A DNA stretch of 56,441 nt from Candidatus Gastranaerophilales bacterium (GCA_944324455.1 CALUWJ010000011.1:1-56441); one strand, 5' to 3'; shown: positions 17,558 through 23,407, counted from the stretch's first letter. A program made the numbers and translations. Notes: a model not told the origin generated them from the sequence alone.

Positions 17558-17574
17558 AATAATCTATAAATAAT

Positions 17575-17603
17575 AAATGGCTCCTTTATTAAAGGAGCCA
17601 TTT
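17575..17603. terminator. Bidirectional terminator between gyrA and the M16-like gene
   Basis: AAATGGCTCCTTT and its exact complement flank a 3-nt loop: a 13-bp perfect stem with A/T-rich ends on both sides. It serves gyrA and the convergent gene that stops at 17609. Confidence 0.9.
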
Positions 17604-17608
17604 GTATT

Positions 17609-18943
17609 TTATGCTTTAACCTCTGTTACAGATGATTTTGATAAATGTTTTTTAGTGAATTTTGTCATTTCATCTAAAGTGATTTCATTTAAAATTTTAT
17701 TTGTTTTTGAAATATTAATAACTCCATCAGAATAATTTTGCATTAAAATTGCCGCACGATTAAATGAATTACTACAAAAAGAGCTTAATTCTTCAGCAGT
17801 TTCTTTTTTGGCTTTTTCAAGTTCCATTGGAGTTATTGGATTATTTATTAAACTTTTTATTGAATCATTTATTCTTTTTTCAATTTCGCCTCCTTGACAT
17901 TTTTTATCTTTGGAACTCAAATAAATTTCTAAATAATCATCTTCAATAAAAGTTGATTTATCAACAACCAAGGTGTAATCATAATCTTTTGGCATAAAAT
18001 CTTTAATTCTGTTTTTGATTAATTTAGCCAATATAGATGTTTCAATTTCTTTTTTGAAGCTATTTTCATCACTAATCACATAAAATTTTGAAATTGAAAG
18101 TTCATCATTTCCGGATGAAATTTCTATTCTGTAATCTTTTTCAATAGGCTTAATTCTATTTGCTTGCCTGATTTCAGTTTCTTTTTTCATTTTTGGGAAT
18201 GATTTTTCAAAAATTCCAATAACTCTATCTTTATTTTCTTTATAAAAAGCACTTGTTGATGACAAACAAACTCTCATTTGAGAATTTTCAATTATTTTTT
18301 TATGAGCTTTTTTAATGTCATCTAAACTAATTTGTTCTAATTCATCAATACTAGGATATTTCTTAGGAAAGAATATTTCCATAGGTTCATTGGCAAATGA
18401 AAATTGGTGGGTTTTAGCTCTTTCAATGACAGCGGTTTTGGCTTTAATAAAATTTTTATTTGAAAAATCAGGATATAATATGGTATCAATTGAATCATTT
18501 AATGTTTTTAAAAGTTCTGTTTCATCACTATTAATACTACATTGTAATTCATTATTCATATAGTCTATTGTTGAAAAAGAAGGTTTATTTTCTTCTGATT
18601 GCAAAGATTGATTAAACAATATTTCATTTAATATCTCACAAATAGCGGGTTTTATCTCTTTTTTGTCAACGGGTAATATAGAAAAAATCATTTTAGGTAT
18701 ATCAGAACTGTTATTATCGGCTAAAAAGACAATATCATTTAATAATGTTGCTTTTTCAATTATAAATTCGCGCGCATTTACATTTGTTTTATTGGGCTGG
18801 CAAGCTAATTGATTAAAAACTCCTATTGGTAATGAAGTTTCTTTTTGATTTTGTGTAGGATTATTTGCAGCATTTTGCGCTTTTATATATTTATCAAGCA
18901 GTTGAGATTTAAAATTTATATTTTGAATATTTTTTATATTCAT
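17609..18943 (-). CDS. M16 peptidase-fold protein without zinc site (paralogue 1 of 3)
   Basis: 444 residues, no signal peptide. The layout is that of a single-chain M16 (insulinase/processing peptidase) half: an N-terminal domain with IVFLADNN followed by a helix where HLLEHMLF would be, then LEQISLDDIKKAHKKIIENSQ near 206 (family LxxvtleDlkaFyk..), and a C-terminal domain ending ILNEITLDEMTKFTKKHLS. The HxxEH zinc motif reads EILNE (103-107), so all three key residues are changed and peptidase activity is unlikely. The N-terminus has NINFKSQ (8-14), resembling the other two paralogues. The function is unknown; such inactive M16 subunits usually support a partner. I am fairly sure of the fold, not of the role. 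Confidence 0.7.
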   Translation of the reverse strand: MNIKNIQNINFKSQLLDKYIKAQNAANNPTQNQKETSLPIGVFNQLACQPNKTNVNAREFIIEKATLLNDIVFLADNNSSDIPKMIFSILPVDKKEIKPAICEILNEILFNQSLQSEENKPSFSTIDYMNNELQCSINSDETELLKTLNDSIDTILYPDFSNKNFIKAKTAVIERAKTHQFSFANEPMEIFFPKKYPSIDELEQISLDDIKKAHKKIIENSQMRVCLSSTSAFYKENKDRVIGIFEKSFPKMKKETEIRQANRIKPIEKDYRIEISSGNDELSISKFYVISDENSFKKEIETSILAKLIKNRIKDFMPKDYDYTLVVDKSTFIEDDYLEIYLSSKDKKCQGGEIEKRINDSIKSLINNPITPMELEKAKKETAEELSSFCSNSFNRAAILMQNYSDGVINISKTNKILNEITLDEMTKFTKKHLSKSSVTEVKA

Positions 18944-18955
18944 GAGTTTCCTTTT

Positions 18956-20284
18956 TTAGTTATTGGCTTCTACATAATAGCCGCTAAGATTTCTTTTTGC
19001 CATGGCTTGTACATCTTGCGGAGTAATCGAGTCTAAAATTTCCAATTGTGATTTTAGACTGCCATCAGTATCTTTGTATCTGCTTAGTGCTTTGTTCATT
19101 CTGGTAAATCCGGATGTAAAATCTTTAATTATACGGTATTTTCTATCTTTTTTTATTTTTGAAAGCATACTTTCATCCATTTTTTCATTAATTAATTTTT
19201 CGATTCCCATATTAACATTTTGCTTAAATTCATCTAAATCCCCTTGATAATCTTTGTTCCACGCATCAAAACGAATGATAGAGGTCGTTTCATCGGTTAT
19301 ATAATTTGCATCAAATTGCGTTGATTTATCACTAAAATCTCTTTGCATGATTTTAATATAATAATCATGCAAAATTAGACCCATTAATTCATTTTTAAAT
19401 TTTGAATCATTTTCAAGAATAAAATATTTTGAATAGCAGGGTCTATCGACAATTTCACCGTTAAACGTTTTGTTTTCTACTAATGGTTTAGTTGGTCTTG
19501 TAAAGTATTGTTCCTCAAAGGGCATAAATAACGGTATACCTGATAAAATATTTAATATGCTATTTTCATCTGAAAAATTGGTGGCCGCGCATATTGCAAT
19601 ATCTGCTTGAGAATTTGCAAATAATTCGGAATACAATTTTTTAATGTCATCAAGCCCAATTTTATCAACATCTTCAATTGTTGTACTTCTGTTTTTATTG
19701 AGCAAATAATCTTCTGCCATTTGGCCGCCACATTTCATATCATTTAAATCTTCTTTTTCGGCATCTTTTGCATATTTAAGTGTTGATTCTTTTAAAATTG
19801 GATTTTTTAAAAATTCTGTGAGATTTTTAAAGCATTGAATTGTATTTGCTTTTTCTGAAGAAAAAATAGCCACTATATTTGTTTCTGTACTATAAATTAT
19901 AACAAAATTTTTGTCTTGAAAATTATTATTTGCAGCAACATTCATCATTCTGGCAAGAATTCTTAATTTTAGTGGGTCAACTTCCATTTTTTTGGGAGTA
20001 ATTAACATTTTTCCCTCAATAACACCGTCATCGTATATTGGTATTTTGGCAATTGAAACTTTTAAATTATTTTTTAAATTATATTTTTCATCCTTAAATC
20101 TTGCCGAATTTGTGCCAATTTGATCAACATAATTGCACATGGCAGTTTTTCTAAAAGTTTCAAAATCTACCAAGCCCATGGTTGCAGAAGTGTTTTCTTT
20201 TGATGGTCTTTTTTTAGTTTTTTTTGTTGCAGCATTTTTAAAGTAAATTGGCCTATATGTATTAATTCTATTTATTTTTACCAT
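18956..20284 (-). CDS. M16 peptidase-fold protein without zinc site (paralogue 2 of 3)
   Basis: 442 residues, no signal peptide. It follows the same plan: a basic N-terminus with PIYFKNA (12-18), a long linker, LKNNLKVSIAKIP (about 70) as the first strand, and a helix RILARMMN (108-115) replacing HxxEH. VDKIGLDDIKKLYSELFANSQ (about 204) matches the family linker before the second subdomain, and the end reads EILDSITPQDVQAMAKRNLS. It lies 12 bp upstream of paralogue 1 in the same direction and is probably cotranscribed. No active-site zinc ligands are visible, so the function is not peptidase by itself. Confidence 0.68.
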   Translation of the reverse strand: MVKINRINTYRPIYFKNAATKKTKKRPSKENTSATMGLVDFETFRKTAMCNYVDQIGTNSARFKDEKYNLKNNLKVSIAKIPIYDDGVIEGKMLITPKKMEVDPLKLRILARMMNVAANNNFQDKNFVIIYSTETNIVAIFSSEKANTIQCFKNLTEFLKNPILKESTLKYAKDAEKEDLNDMKCGGQMAEDYLLNKNRSTTIEDVDKIGLDDIKKLYSELFANSQADIAICAATNFSDENSILNILSGIPLFMPFEEQYFTRPTKPLVENKTFNGEIVDRPCYSKYFILENDSKFKNELMGLILHDYYIKIMQRDFSDKSTQFDANYITDETTSIIRFDAWNKDYQGDLDEFKQNVNMGIEKLINEKMDESMLSKIKKDRKYRIIKDFTSGFTRMNKALSRYKDTDGSLKSQLEILDSITPQDVQAMAKRNLSGYYVEANN

Positions 20285-20429
20285 ATTATATGCGCTCCAT
20301 TGTCTTTTAGCTTTCTTACAATTTTTTTAAATTCTGAATTATCCAATAAACTTATTTTGTTGTATCCTTTACATATTTTACTTAATTGTCATTATCTTCT
20401 TCATCATTGAGAATGTTTACTTTCATTAA

Positions 20430-21752
20430 TTATCTACGAATTTCTGTTATAGAAGGTGAGCAAAGAATTATTTGTGCTTTTTGTTGTAGCTCTTTTGGAC
20501 CAATCGAATTCAAAACAGAAGAATAATCCTCATTTGCACTCGAGGTTTGAGCAGGCTTATATGACAATAATTCCGCTCTTGAAATAGAAGTTTTTAAATC
20601 TTCTTTTCTTGATTTTAAAACTCTTTGTTTAATCTTTTCAAAAAATTTATCATCAATCGGCGATTCTGTGATTGACTTAATAGCTAAATTAATCATATTT
20701 TCATTAATTTGTGCATTTTTATCTGCTATAATGTAAGTTATAAAATGTTTGTTTAAAAAGTCTGCATTATGGAAACACTTTAAACTTTTAGTATCTTGTA
20801 AATAATTTTTATACATTATTTCTTCAAGTGCAGCCCCAATCAAATCTGAAATAACTTGATCTTTTAAGGTAAGGCTATTTTGAAAATTAAAAGTTTTTGA
20901 AACAAGTTCACCAAATTCGGAACTTGGTTCTAAATAAAAGACTTCATCTTTTTCTATTGGTAATGGAGTTTTTGATAAAACATCATCATTAAAAGGCTTT
21001 TTATTTGGTATTTGACTTTCTATTATACCTTTTATTTGTTCCACTGTTGTTTCATTTGCACCTTTAGGAATTGATATAGTACATAATATAGCTGAATTTA
21101 ATAATAAATCATTATGAAAATTTTTTATATCATCGCTTGTTATAGCTTTAATGTCTTCTTTTGTGAATTTTTTAGCACCATATAATCTATTAAAGGCTTC
21201 ATCATTTTGTTGATAATTAAAATCATCAAGAATAAATTCTTTTTCAAGCTCTAATTCTTTTTCGCTAAATTTTAAAGTATGAAAATCTTGCAAGAATTTT
21301 TTTAACATCACTAAAAAATCTTTTTTATCCCAATTTGCGCATATTTCCATGGCTTTAGCATTTGCCGAGTAGAATGTTACAAAATTATCGCTATCGTTTT
21401 CATAATGACCAATATTATCTAACATTTTTCTATGCAAAAATTTAACTGCAGGATTAACATTTTGTTGTTGTGTTGGAATAAAATACATTTTAAGTGCAAT
21501 TTTATTTTCTGGAGAATTTTTATCAATATTTAACAAAACATTATTTTTAAGAGTTAATGTTTCTATATCTTTAAAATCATCCGGTGCTGGTTTATGCAGT
21601 TCAATCCAATATTCAAGCCCTTGCGGATATAATATTTTTTCATAGGCTTGACTATAACTTGGTTTTTGAGAATTTCTCTTTAATATAGTTGGGTCAACTA
21701 TACTTGTTTGAAATTTAAAATTACTATTAATTGTAGTTTTGTTTATTTTCAT
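20430..21752 (-). CDS. M16 peptidase-fold protein without zinc site (paralogue 3 of 3)
   Basis: 440 residues, the first of the three tandem paralogues. The N-terminus has NSNFKFQ (9-15). NNVLLNIDKN (70-79) marks the first strand, the helix at 104-111 reads KFLHRKML where HxxEH belongs, and TSDDIKNFHNDLLLNS (about 203) is the family linker. The C-terminus (VLNSIGPKELQQKAQIIL) matches the other two. A 145-bp gap to paralogue 2 contains nothing I can call beyond AT-rich sequence. The 304 bp upstream (21,753-22,056) hold only a hairpin at 21,800-21,830 and AT-rich sequence. Confidence 0.67.
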   Translation of the reverse strand: MKINKTTINSNFKFQTSIVDPTILKRNSQKPSYSQAYEKILYPQGLEYWIELHKPAPDDFKDIETLTLKNNVLLNIDKNSPENKIALKMYFIPTQQQNVNPAVKFLHRKMLDNIGHYENDSDNFVTFYSANAKAMEICANWDKKDFLVMLKKFLQDFHTLKFSEKELELEKEFILDDFNYQQNDEAFNRLYGAKKFTKEDIKAITSDDIKNFHNDLLLNSAILCTISIPKGANETTVEQIKGIIESQIPNKKPFNDDVLSKTPLPIEKDEVFYLEPSSEFGELVSKTFNFQNSLTLKDQVISDLIGAALEEIMYKNYLQDTKSLKCFHNADFLNKHFITYIIADKNAQINENMINLAIKSITESPIDDKFFEKIKQRVLKSRKEDLKTSISRAELLSYKPAQTSSANEDYSSVLNSIGPKELQQKAQIILCSPSITEIRR

Positions 21753-21799
21753 AAAACTGTGCCCCTGTTTTATTTAAAATTTTCCCTTTCTTTTTATAC

Positions 21800-21830
21800 A
21801 AAAAGTCGACAATCAGAATGTCGACTTTTT
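21800..21830. terminator. Rho-independent terminator-like hairpin in the 304-bp gap upstream of the M16 cluster
   Basis: AAAAAGTCGACA and its exact complement enclose a 7-nt loop and end in a T run on either strand. On the minus strand it lies 226 bp beyond the stop of the 22,057 gene and 47 bp before the start of the M16 cluster. It may end the kinase transcript or attenuate the M16 one. Confidence 0.75.
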
Positions 21831-22056
21831 ATTTTAGAGGTCAAAAACTTAAAAGAACATTTTGTTCTATTTAGCTTAATTATAAAATAATAATATATTT
21901 TATTAAGCATAAAACCTCGCTTTTTATTATACAATATTTTAAAAAAATTTTTTTTGCGTAAATATGGATAAAATCTATACAAAAATTTACATTTTACTAT
22001 ATGTGTAGCAATTACCTAAACAAATGAACTAAACTATATAAATTTTAAACAAGAAA

Positions 22057-22728
22057 CTATTTAATTTCTCCGCTATTTAACAATTTTTCAACTTCATTTT
22101 TTATTTTTTGATGAATTTCATCTTGGCTTTTTGTTCCGTCAAGCTCAATAAAATGATACTCTTTAATCAATTTTTTATATTCATCAAGACATCTTTTTTG
22201 ATATATTTCAAAACTGTTATAAATATCTGTTGATAAGCCAATATCTCGTCCTGATTCAAAATAATCCAAAGCACCATTTTTAGCTATCAATCTTTTAATT
22301 AAAATATCAGGTGAAACATTTAAATAAAAAACTAAATCAGGTTTAGGAGCGAAACTATATAAATTTTTCACCCAATTTATATCATGTCCTCTCACTGAAT
22401 CACGAACATAAGCTGTATAAATATATCTATCCATTAAAACAACAAACCCTGCTTTTAGAGCGGGAATTATTTCATTTTCTAATCTATCAGTATAATCTGC
22501 TGCATACAAAAGAGAATATGTTGTTGTATTTAGCATATTTTTTTCTTTTGCTTCATTGATTATTCCTGAGATTAATCTTGAAGTTTTCCATTCTGAAACA
22601 GTACAACCATAACATCTATCTATAATGTATTGAGATAGTAAATTAACTTGTGTAGATTTTCCTGAGCCGTCTGTTCCCTCAATAACAATCAAAAGCCCGT
22701 CATAACCATGGTTTATATTATTTTTCAT
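22057..22728 (-). CDS. Thymidylate kinase-like P-loop kinase (second of a tandem pair)
   Basis: 223 residues. The P-loop is GTDGSGKST (18-26) and the substrate loop LMDRYIYTAYVRD (about 99). These place it in the TMP-kinase superfamily. Two classic TMPK signatures differ: the TREPGGT loop is replaced by SEWKTS, and the AYQ after DRY is replaced by YVRD. The same changes occur in its neighbour, so both belong to a divergent subfamily commonly auto-named dTMP kinase; the true phosphate acceptor is uncertain. Its start overlaps the end of the upstream gene by 11 bp, with a good AAAGGA site. Confidence 0.8.
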   Translation of the reverse strand: MKNNINHGYDGLLIVIEGTDGSGKSTQVNLLSQYIIDRCYGCTVSEWKTSRLISGIINEAKEKNMLNTTTYSLLYAADYTDRLENEIIPALKAGFVVLMDRYIYTAYVRDSVRGHDINWVKNLYSFAPKPDLVFYLNVSPDILIKRLIAKNGALDYFESGRDIGLSTDIYNSFEIYQKRCLDEYKKLIKEYHFIELDGTKSQDEIHQKIKNEVEKLLNSGEIK

Positions 22729-23407
22729 TTTGTTCCTTTAAAATTTTTCTTGATTTTAATAACTCAGATACTTCTTGCCTGATAAACTCTTGTTTAGCAT
22801 GTATTGATTTCATTGCGTCAATTTTAATTAATCCAAATTCATCAATCATAGCTTTATATTGTTCAACTATTCGATTTTGAAATAAGACATAACTTTTATA
22901 TGGATTATTTGATAATTTCATGTCCATGCCTGCTTCATAAAATTTTGGCTGCCTGTTAGAGCAAATTCTCTCTAAGCTGTCTTTTGGGCTAACATCAAAA
23001 TAAAACGTCATATCAGGTTTTATTGCAAAACCATACATATTTCTAACCCACTTTGGATCAACCTCTCTAGCTACATCGCGAGCAAAAGCCGTATAAACAT
23101 ATCTATCTGCTAAAACTACAAACCCCGCTTTTAGCGCAGGTTTAATTGTTCTTTCTAATCTATCAGCGAAATCAACTGCATGTAATAATGAAAAAGTTCT
23201 TCCTGATAAAAGATTTTTCTTTTTGGCTTTTTTAGTTGTATTTGAAATTAATTCAGAAGAATTCCATTGAGTTAAAATTACATCTATTCCTTTAGATTTT
23301 AGCCAATTATGCAATAATTCAATTTGGGTTGACTTGCCTGAACCGTCAATACCCTCTACACAAATTAGCACCCCTGAATAGGTATGTTTTTTTGAAAATC
23401 TTAACAT
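22718..23407 (-). CDS. Thymidylate kinase-like P-loop kinase (first of a tandem pair)
   Basis: 229 residues. The P-loop EGIDGSGKSTQ lies at 18-28, TQWNSSELIS (about 50) sits where TREPGGT is expected, and LADRYVYTAFARD (about 101) forms the substrate loop. It aligns closely with the next gene over its whole length (PALKAGFVVL, DRYxYTA, KPDxxFYxxVSP), so the pair arose by tandem duplication. The two could form a heterodimer, since TMP kinases are dimers; that is inference. AAGGT lies upstream of the ATG. It is probably the first gene of the operon. Confidence 0.8.
   Translation of the reverse strand: MLRFSKKHTYSGVLICVEGIDGSGKSTQIELLHNWLKSKGIDVILTQWNSSELISNTTKKAKKKNLLSGRTFSLLHAVDFADRLERTIKPALKAGFVVLADRYVYTAFARDVAREVDPKWVRNMYGFAIKPDMTFYFDVSPKDSLERICSNRQPKFYEAGMDMKLSNNPYKSYVLFQNRIVEQYKAMIDEFGLIKIDAMKSIHAKQEFIRQEVSELLKSRKILKEQNEK

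Follow-up and report, generated by a model that had tools for sequence, protein, structure and literature searches.

Pseudo-peptidases with the M16 fold are known as partners of active M16 halves or as core proteins of bc1, a mitochondrial respiratory complex. The inactive alpha subunits of M16B enzymes (MPP-alpha, TTHA1265, PA0372, SPH2682 and YmfF), often encoded by tandem genes, have an M16 two-domain fold of about 420 amino acids (aa) without the HxxEH zinc motif, and complete the active site beside a catalytic subunit. The other hallmark of M16 catalysis, a substrate-binding Arg/Tyr pair in the C-terminal domain, is contributed by the inactive partner in M16B heterodimers such as Bcn-gP1 (PMC8960859) and lies in M16 D4 generally (PMC12731061). 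Here we describe three tandem M16-like pseudo-peptidases, A1, A2 and A3, encoded in a 56,441-nucleotide (nt) stretch of DNA from a Candidatus Gastranaerophilales bacterium (GCA_944324455.1 CALUWJ010000011.1:1-56441; henceforth the window), which is contig C11 of the 1.76-Mb genome G000. We infer that this trio might belong to an accessory AAA+ machine, trimmed here to three genes, and act in it as clamps or scaffolds without catalysis, a reading whose chances we put at about even. Our literature searches found no paper pairing Gastranaerophilales with M16, and none joining the terms M16 peptidase, inactive, AAA+ ATPase and operon.

The trio and its predicted M16 fold

The three open reading frames (ORFs) are transcribed in the order A3, A2, A1 from the minus strand of 17609-21752:

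17609..18943, minus strand: A1, M16-like pseudo-peptidase ORF, 444 aa; residues 1-56 form a disordered leader with a NINFKS motif, followed by the M16 two-domain unit
18956..20284, minus strand: A2, M16-like pseudo-peptidase ORF, 442 aa; its orthologs in the related genomes G260 and G176 lie directly 3' of a gene for a 980-aa protein
20430..21752, minus strand: A3, M16-like pseudo-peptidase ORF, 440 aa; first gene of the cassette

These lengths and the shared direction bear out a first-pass annotation of the sequence, which had singled out three tandem genes of 440-444 aa. The proteins are related to each other beyond chance (BLASTP E-values of 1e-13 for A1-A2, 9e-11 for A1-A3 and 3e-8 for A2-A3), with pairwise identities of 24-26% over the aligned parts. 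Searches against family databases returned little: A1 alone matched a Pfam model, below the cut-off (Peptidase_M16_C, E 0.0011), A2 and A3 had no match in Pfam or NCBIfam, and a PDB sequence search with A1 gave just weak LysR-type matches with E-values of 0.03 or above. The affinity emerges from AlphaFold2 models based on shallow alignments. That of A1 has a predicted local-distance difference score (pLDDT) of 76 and a predicted template-modelling score (pTM) of 0.74, with residues 1-56 disordered; that of A3 is weaker (pLDDT 67, pTM 0.53). Foldseek matched both to M16 structures (E-values of 2e-17 and 4e-15, respectively), and the VIA comparison of A1 with M16 chains reached Z 27. The models thus support the M16 fold that the first-pass annotation had claimed for A1 and A3, and A2 joins them through homology only. 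Its linker motif, xxISLDDIKKxH, suits A1 best; A2 (IGLDDIKKLY) and A3 (ITSDDIKNFH) deviate from it.

The best Foldseek match of A1, at the above E-value, is bc1 core 2, and some such core proteins belong to the M16 pseudo-peptidases (PMC11266112, PMC12731061). Hence, the trio could be envisaged as structural proteins of another membrane complex, bc1-core-like and with no link to an AAA+ ATPase in this organism. However, this top match means little because M16 chains of all kinds score about alike in the VIA comparison with A1 (Z 24-27), and the genomic context points to AAA+ and HEAT genes (see below); we accordingly regard this alternative as improbable.

Loss of the zinc site and of the Arg/Tyr pair

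When the trio is aligned to this genome's active M16s, EILNE, RILAR and KFLHR stand in the columns of HxxEH, exactly as first annotated. A search for HxxEH, HExxH and other zinc-like motifs found none anywhere in A1-A3; a second zinc motif would have refuted the first-pass annotation. The loss extends to the whole trio family (hereafter M16L), with HxxEH missing in 13/13 members. The Arg/Tyr pair of the C-terminal domain, scored as R-x4-[LIMV]-[AGTSC]-Y (an R-x6-Y pair motif), is found in all 12 of the two-half M16s fetched and in the inactive partner C8b vs none of the 13 M16L members. Its loss argues, at the level of sequence, against canonical peptide binding.

These patterns bear on the possibility that at least one of the trio pairs with an active M16 encoded elsewhere to form a working protease. 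Inactive subunits do complete active sites in M16B heterodimers (PMC12731061, PMC8960859), and the genome holds active M16s on contigs C1 (870 aa), C8 (a pair of 445 and 410 aa) and C15 (968 aa). However, all these lie on other contigs, and each is already provided with an inactive second half, or with a partner encoded next to it, in which the Arg/Tyr pair is intact. The 56-kb window contig has no M16 gene besides the trio, as the first-pass annotation had noted of the immediate neighborhood, and no catalytic M16 was seen among the ORFs of the relatives' M16L loci. Since the pair is lost in 13/13 members, the trio are unlikely to act as inactive partners completing a protease in trans, and together with the ancestry presented below, this makes such a pairing very improbable. 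The annotation's further proposal, that three proteins lacking catalysis serve a non-peptidase use, is favored by this probable inability to complete the active site of another subunit.

Ancestry and distribution

We searched a sample of 383 genomes from the order and family with a profile of the trio family. It separates cleanly: 13 stand-alone proteins of about 440 aa, along with a relic in G057, match with E < 1e-140, and the remaining matches listed are weaker than 1e-40 and lie in frames of about 850-1030 aa. The stand-alone M16L proteins were found in genus g1 and one genome of genus g36 only. In a tree of separated M16 halves, the 13 M16L proteins form one clade (support 100/97), nested within the non-catalytic C-terminal halves (100/99) as sister to the C half of G118/G112 (98/96), whereas the N halves, the C8-type subunits and C1 are placed elsewhere. 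The tree shows that the trio descends from the non-catalytic C-terminal half of a two-half M16 of about 950 aa that is common in this bacterial family. The clade thus groups with halves that are joined covalently to a catalytic half rather than with a C8b-type subunit, which speaks against pairing with an active M16. Within the clade, the three paralogs A1, A2 and A3 are old, and orthologs of each are found in other species.

Operons of the relatives

The fuller operons of G260 and of contig C18 of G176 share a five-gene order: an AAA+ ATPase, a HEAT protein, a HEAT protein carrying one membrane helix (HEATtm), the 980-aa protein and, last, an M16-like protein, whose start overlaps the 980-aa gene. 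The ATPase, of about 441 aa, has an intact Walker A motif, and its nearest solved relatives are VCP-like, AFG2 and Msp1 proteins. The 980-aa protein has a degenerate AAA region and one predicted membrane helix, with no Walker A pattern found in it; the HEAT assignments come from weak, sub-cut-off Pfam matches. As judged by gene order and spacing, M16L and AAA+ genes share an operon in G260 and G176-C18, and they share one or at least adjoin in a second G176 locus, G133, G057 and G296. The second G176 locus (contig C15) has a transmembrane (TM) protein, an AAA+ protein and then A3; in G133, AAA-like genes come first, then a gene for a 630-aa protein homologous to the later portion of the 980-aa one, and then A1; G296 has an AAA+ gene split across two ORFs, a TM protein and an M16-like gene; and G057 has an AAA+ gene followed by an A1 relic. 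G223 encodes the 980-aa protein and A3, after which its contig ends within the first part of an A1 ortholog, and G233 (locus L040) has the order HEATtm-A3-A1.

Some of these loci display further changes. The G057 relic (L042:9020-9450) reflects an internal deletion that left the start codons and the last ~117 codons of the A1 ortholog, with a complete AAA+ gene adjoining. A leader RNA (see below) followed by a broken AAA/HEAT/980 operon is found at L142:911-4409 (G254, genus g36); thus, operon decay is recurrent. Some kilobases downstream of the G233 M16-like pair, genes at L040:13969-16291, identified by reading translations, encode reverse-transcriptase-like, DnaB-like ATPase and tyrosine-recombinase-like proteins and suggest a mobile element.

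A defense role and a phage origin were considered and rejected. The relatives' AAA+ protein matches IetA weakly in PADLOC (E 2e-6), over ~110-140 residues ending at the P-loop, and beyond this PADLOC gave just a weak match of A3 (E 0.011). No relatives were found in IMG/VR, and the PHROG matches of A1-A3 are weak only.

A structured leader RNA

A structured RNA precedes the operon in the window:

21799..21922, minus strand: structured leader RNA of ~125 nt; a three-stem fold closed by GAGG/CCUC, followed by a hairpin and U run that resemble an intrinsic terminator
21926..21933, minus strand: putative extended -10-like box, TGTATAAT, identified by eye just upstream of the leader

Its 3' end lies 46 nt from the A3 start, and an A/T homopolymer block, conserved in the relatives as judged by eye, precedes the -10-like box. 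The folding z-score of the leader is -6.8, with -5.8 and -7.7 in relatives. In the same 383 genomes, a covariance model recovered 11 strong copies, in genus g1 and one g36 genome:

Window and relatives: 21799-21922 (minus strand); L040:5562-5693; L113:1349-1480; L042:7758-7881; L085:7911-8040 (minus strand); L087:182-314
Further relatives: L088:2249-2375; L142:911-1039; L143:659-788; L144:12277-12414 (minus strand); L145:1465-1606 (minus strand)

Each of the 11 precedes one of these operons, in most cases with 20-46 nt between it and the first gene; weak matches outside the genus (E 0.001-0.01) were treated as chance. Compensatory changes occur at 19 of the 35 pairs (36 cells) vs 4-10 pairs (5-10 cells) in controls with a slid structure, in an alignment fitted to the covariance model, which favors covariation, and with four of the 11 copies outside the model. 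The leader is therefore a structured RNA with covariation. A leader peptide was considered, as the sequence can be read as a short ORF (MKYKI..YFI..) that has a single gap of 3 nt, and rejected: the changes are even across codon positions (0.30, 0.31 and 0.33, without a third-position excess) and mostly non-synonymous, so that the leader looks like RNA. As nothing in Rfam 15 came near the gathering score for it, this compact, strongly covarying element is a candidate for a new class of regulatory RNA.

A shared N-terminal motif and the proposed machine

The disordered N-terminus contains the motif [I/V]xF[K/T/G][G/S/A], whose Phe is invariant in 13/13 M16L proteins in an otherwise variable region. 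A1 and A2 share this motif at their N-termini with operon proteins from L085, L087, L144 and L147. Of 42 operon proteins, drawn from several unrelated families, 25 contain it vs 2.1 +/- 1.2 expected from random positions in these proteins, although some of the proteins counted had served to shape the pattern and homologs entered the count separately. The four HEATtm proteins and two of the three other TM proteins lack it. The motif is possibly a targeting or assembly tag on the soluble operon proteins.

In the model we favor, A1-A3 are paralogous pseudo-peptidases that should neither cut nor complete the active site of another subunit, since both the zinc site and the Arg/Tyr pair are lost. 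The M16L proteins would most likely be the parts of a membrane-linked accessory AAA+ machine that bind or act as a scaffold; its other parts would be the Msp1/VCP-like ATPase, the HEAT proteins, of which one has a membrane helix, and the degenerate-AAA protein with its predicted membrane helix. The short N-terminal motif of most soluble members would gather these parts, and the terminator-ending leader RNA would control the operon through attenuation. The window genome would have lost the ATPase, HEAT and degenerate-AAA genes, with leader-A3-A2-A1 remaining between gyrA and tmk. The assembly and ligand of the machine, the attenuation and the continued working of the trimmed cassette are what we infer from these patterns. 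The fuller operons in G260 and G176 make the function testable.

The trimmed cassette of the window

Comparison with relatives delineates the insertion and a trace of the lost genes:

17573..22050, minus strand: whole inserted cassette, with approximate ends
17573..17605, no strand assigned: bidirectional terminator hairpin between gyrA (plus strand) and A1 (minus strand)
20281..20355, minus strand: 25-codon 3' relic of the 980-aa degenerate-AAA gene, ending in RKLKDNGAHIIW and a stop codon (tblastn E 7e-7)

The relic, between A3 and A2, matches the C-terminal 25 residues of the 980-aa protein of G260 at 68% identity and overlaps the start of A2 in the same arrangement as in G260. At least nine relatives, among them some whose GyrA is 97-98% identical, have gyrA directly beside tmk1; in the four that were aligned, the two genes share one terminator in a gap of about 45 bp. 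The window has a 4.5-kb cassette at this place. The relic, the AAA+/HEAT/980 operons of the relatives and this position between gyrA and tmk establish the trio-only cluster as a secondary state: it is what remains of a larger operon after its insertion and an internal deletion, in either order. Hence, the description in the first-pass annotation of a self-standing cluster of only inactive subunits does not hold. Beyond the cassette, 22057-23407 (minus strand) contains two tandem thymidylate-kinase family genes, about 45% identical, which are a neighboring pair in nearly all genus relatives searched.

Several observations weigh against a working machine of the proposed kind. An AAA+ query found no homolog in G000 at a threshold of E 1e-6, and no 980-aa homolog was detectable there apart from the 25-codon stub; therefore, any machine would be incomplete here. 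Some other M16L genes (G279 C12, G320 and G233) are likewise without an AAA+ gene. In addition to the above limits of the motif count, a looser pattern is not enriched genome-wide (348 genes; 25 vs 19-20 expected). Finally, the window-copy branches are longer than those of some orthologs (0.23 vs 0.09 for A1), and constraint on them may be relaxed. In the main rival reading, the three genes are the remnant of a mobile AAA+ operon in decay and have no present function here; the relic, the missing AAA+ and 980-aa homologs, the long A1 branch and the truncated A1 gene of the genus relative G057 all speak for it. Nevertheless, the three ORFs are full length with zero frameshifts across 4 kb, the leader, promoter-like box and terminator are intact, and the core-region ratio of non-synonymous to synonymous rates (dN/dS) between orthologs is 0.21-0.37, though this average includes time before the deletion. 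We consider such a functionless remnant unlikely, if by some way the most serious of the alternatives.

Comparison with known systems

We tentatively propose, with somewhat less assurance than for the scaffold role of the trio itself, that these loci represent a new accessory system of Gastranaerophilales-type bacteria, in which a membrane-linked AAA+ ATPase works with HEAT proteins, a degenerate AAA protein and one to three pseudo-M16 clamps that hold substrates without proteolysis, assembled by the motif and controlled by a new class of attenuator RNA. The IetAS anti-phage system joins an AAA+ protein with a protease, and the relatives' ATPase resembles IetA weakly; however, its partner is a subtilisin-like protease, not a pseudo-M16. 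The bc1 core proteins I and II are, like the trio, pseudo-M16s, and are kept as structural parts of a membrane complex, but to our knowledge they have no AAA+/HEAT operon, leader RNA or N-terminal FKG-like motif. In contrast to the trio, the M16B alpha subunits act beside a catalytic subunit, and bacterial ones such as Bcn-gP1 bear the Arg/Tyr pair (PMC8960859); the origin of the trio from the C half of a two-half enzyme also sets it apart from them. The chloroplast FtsHi/Ycf2 complex offers the likeness of an ATP-driven AAA machine using dead protease modules (PMC11266112), although FtsHi belongs to M41, not M16, and to a eukaryotic organelle, making this an analogy in idea only. Closest in sequence are the inactive C halves of the ~950-aa M16s (C15 in this genome), some of which start with a similar NINFKA leader (G023); unlike the trio, these are fused to an active HxxEH half and keep the Arg/Tyr pair. 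Thus, the C half of a two-half M16 was apparently freed, multiplied to at least three paralogs, stripped of its substrate residues and set in an AAA+ operon.

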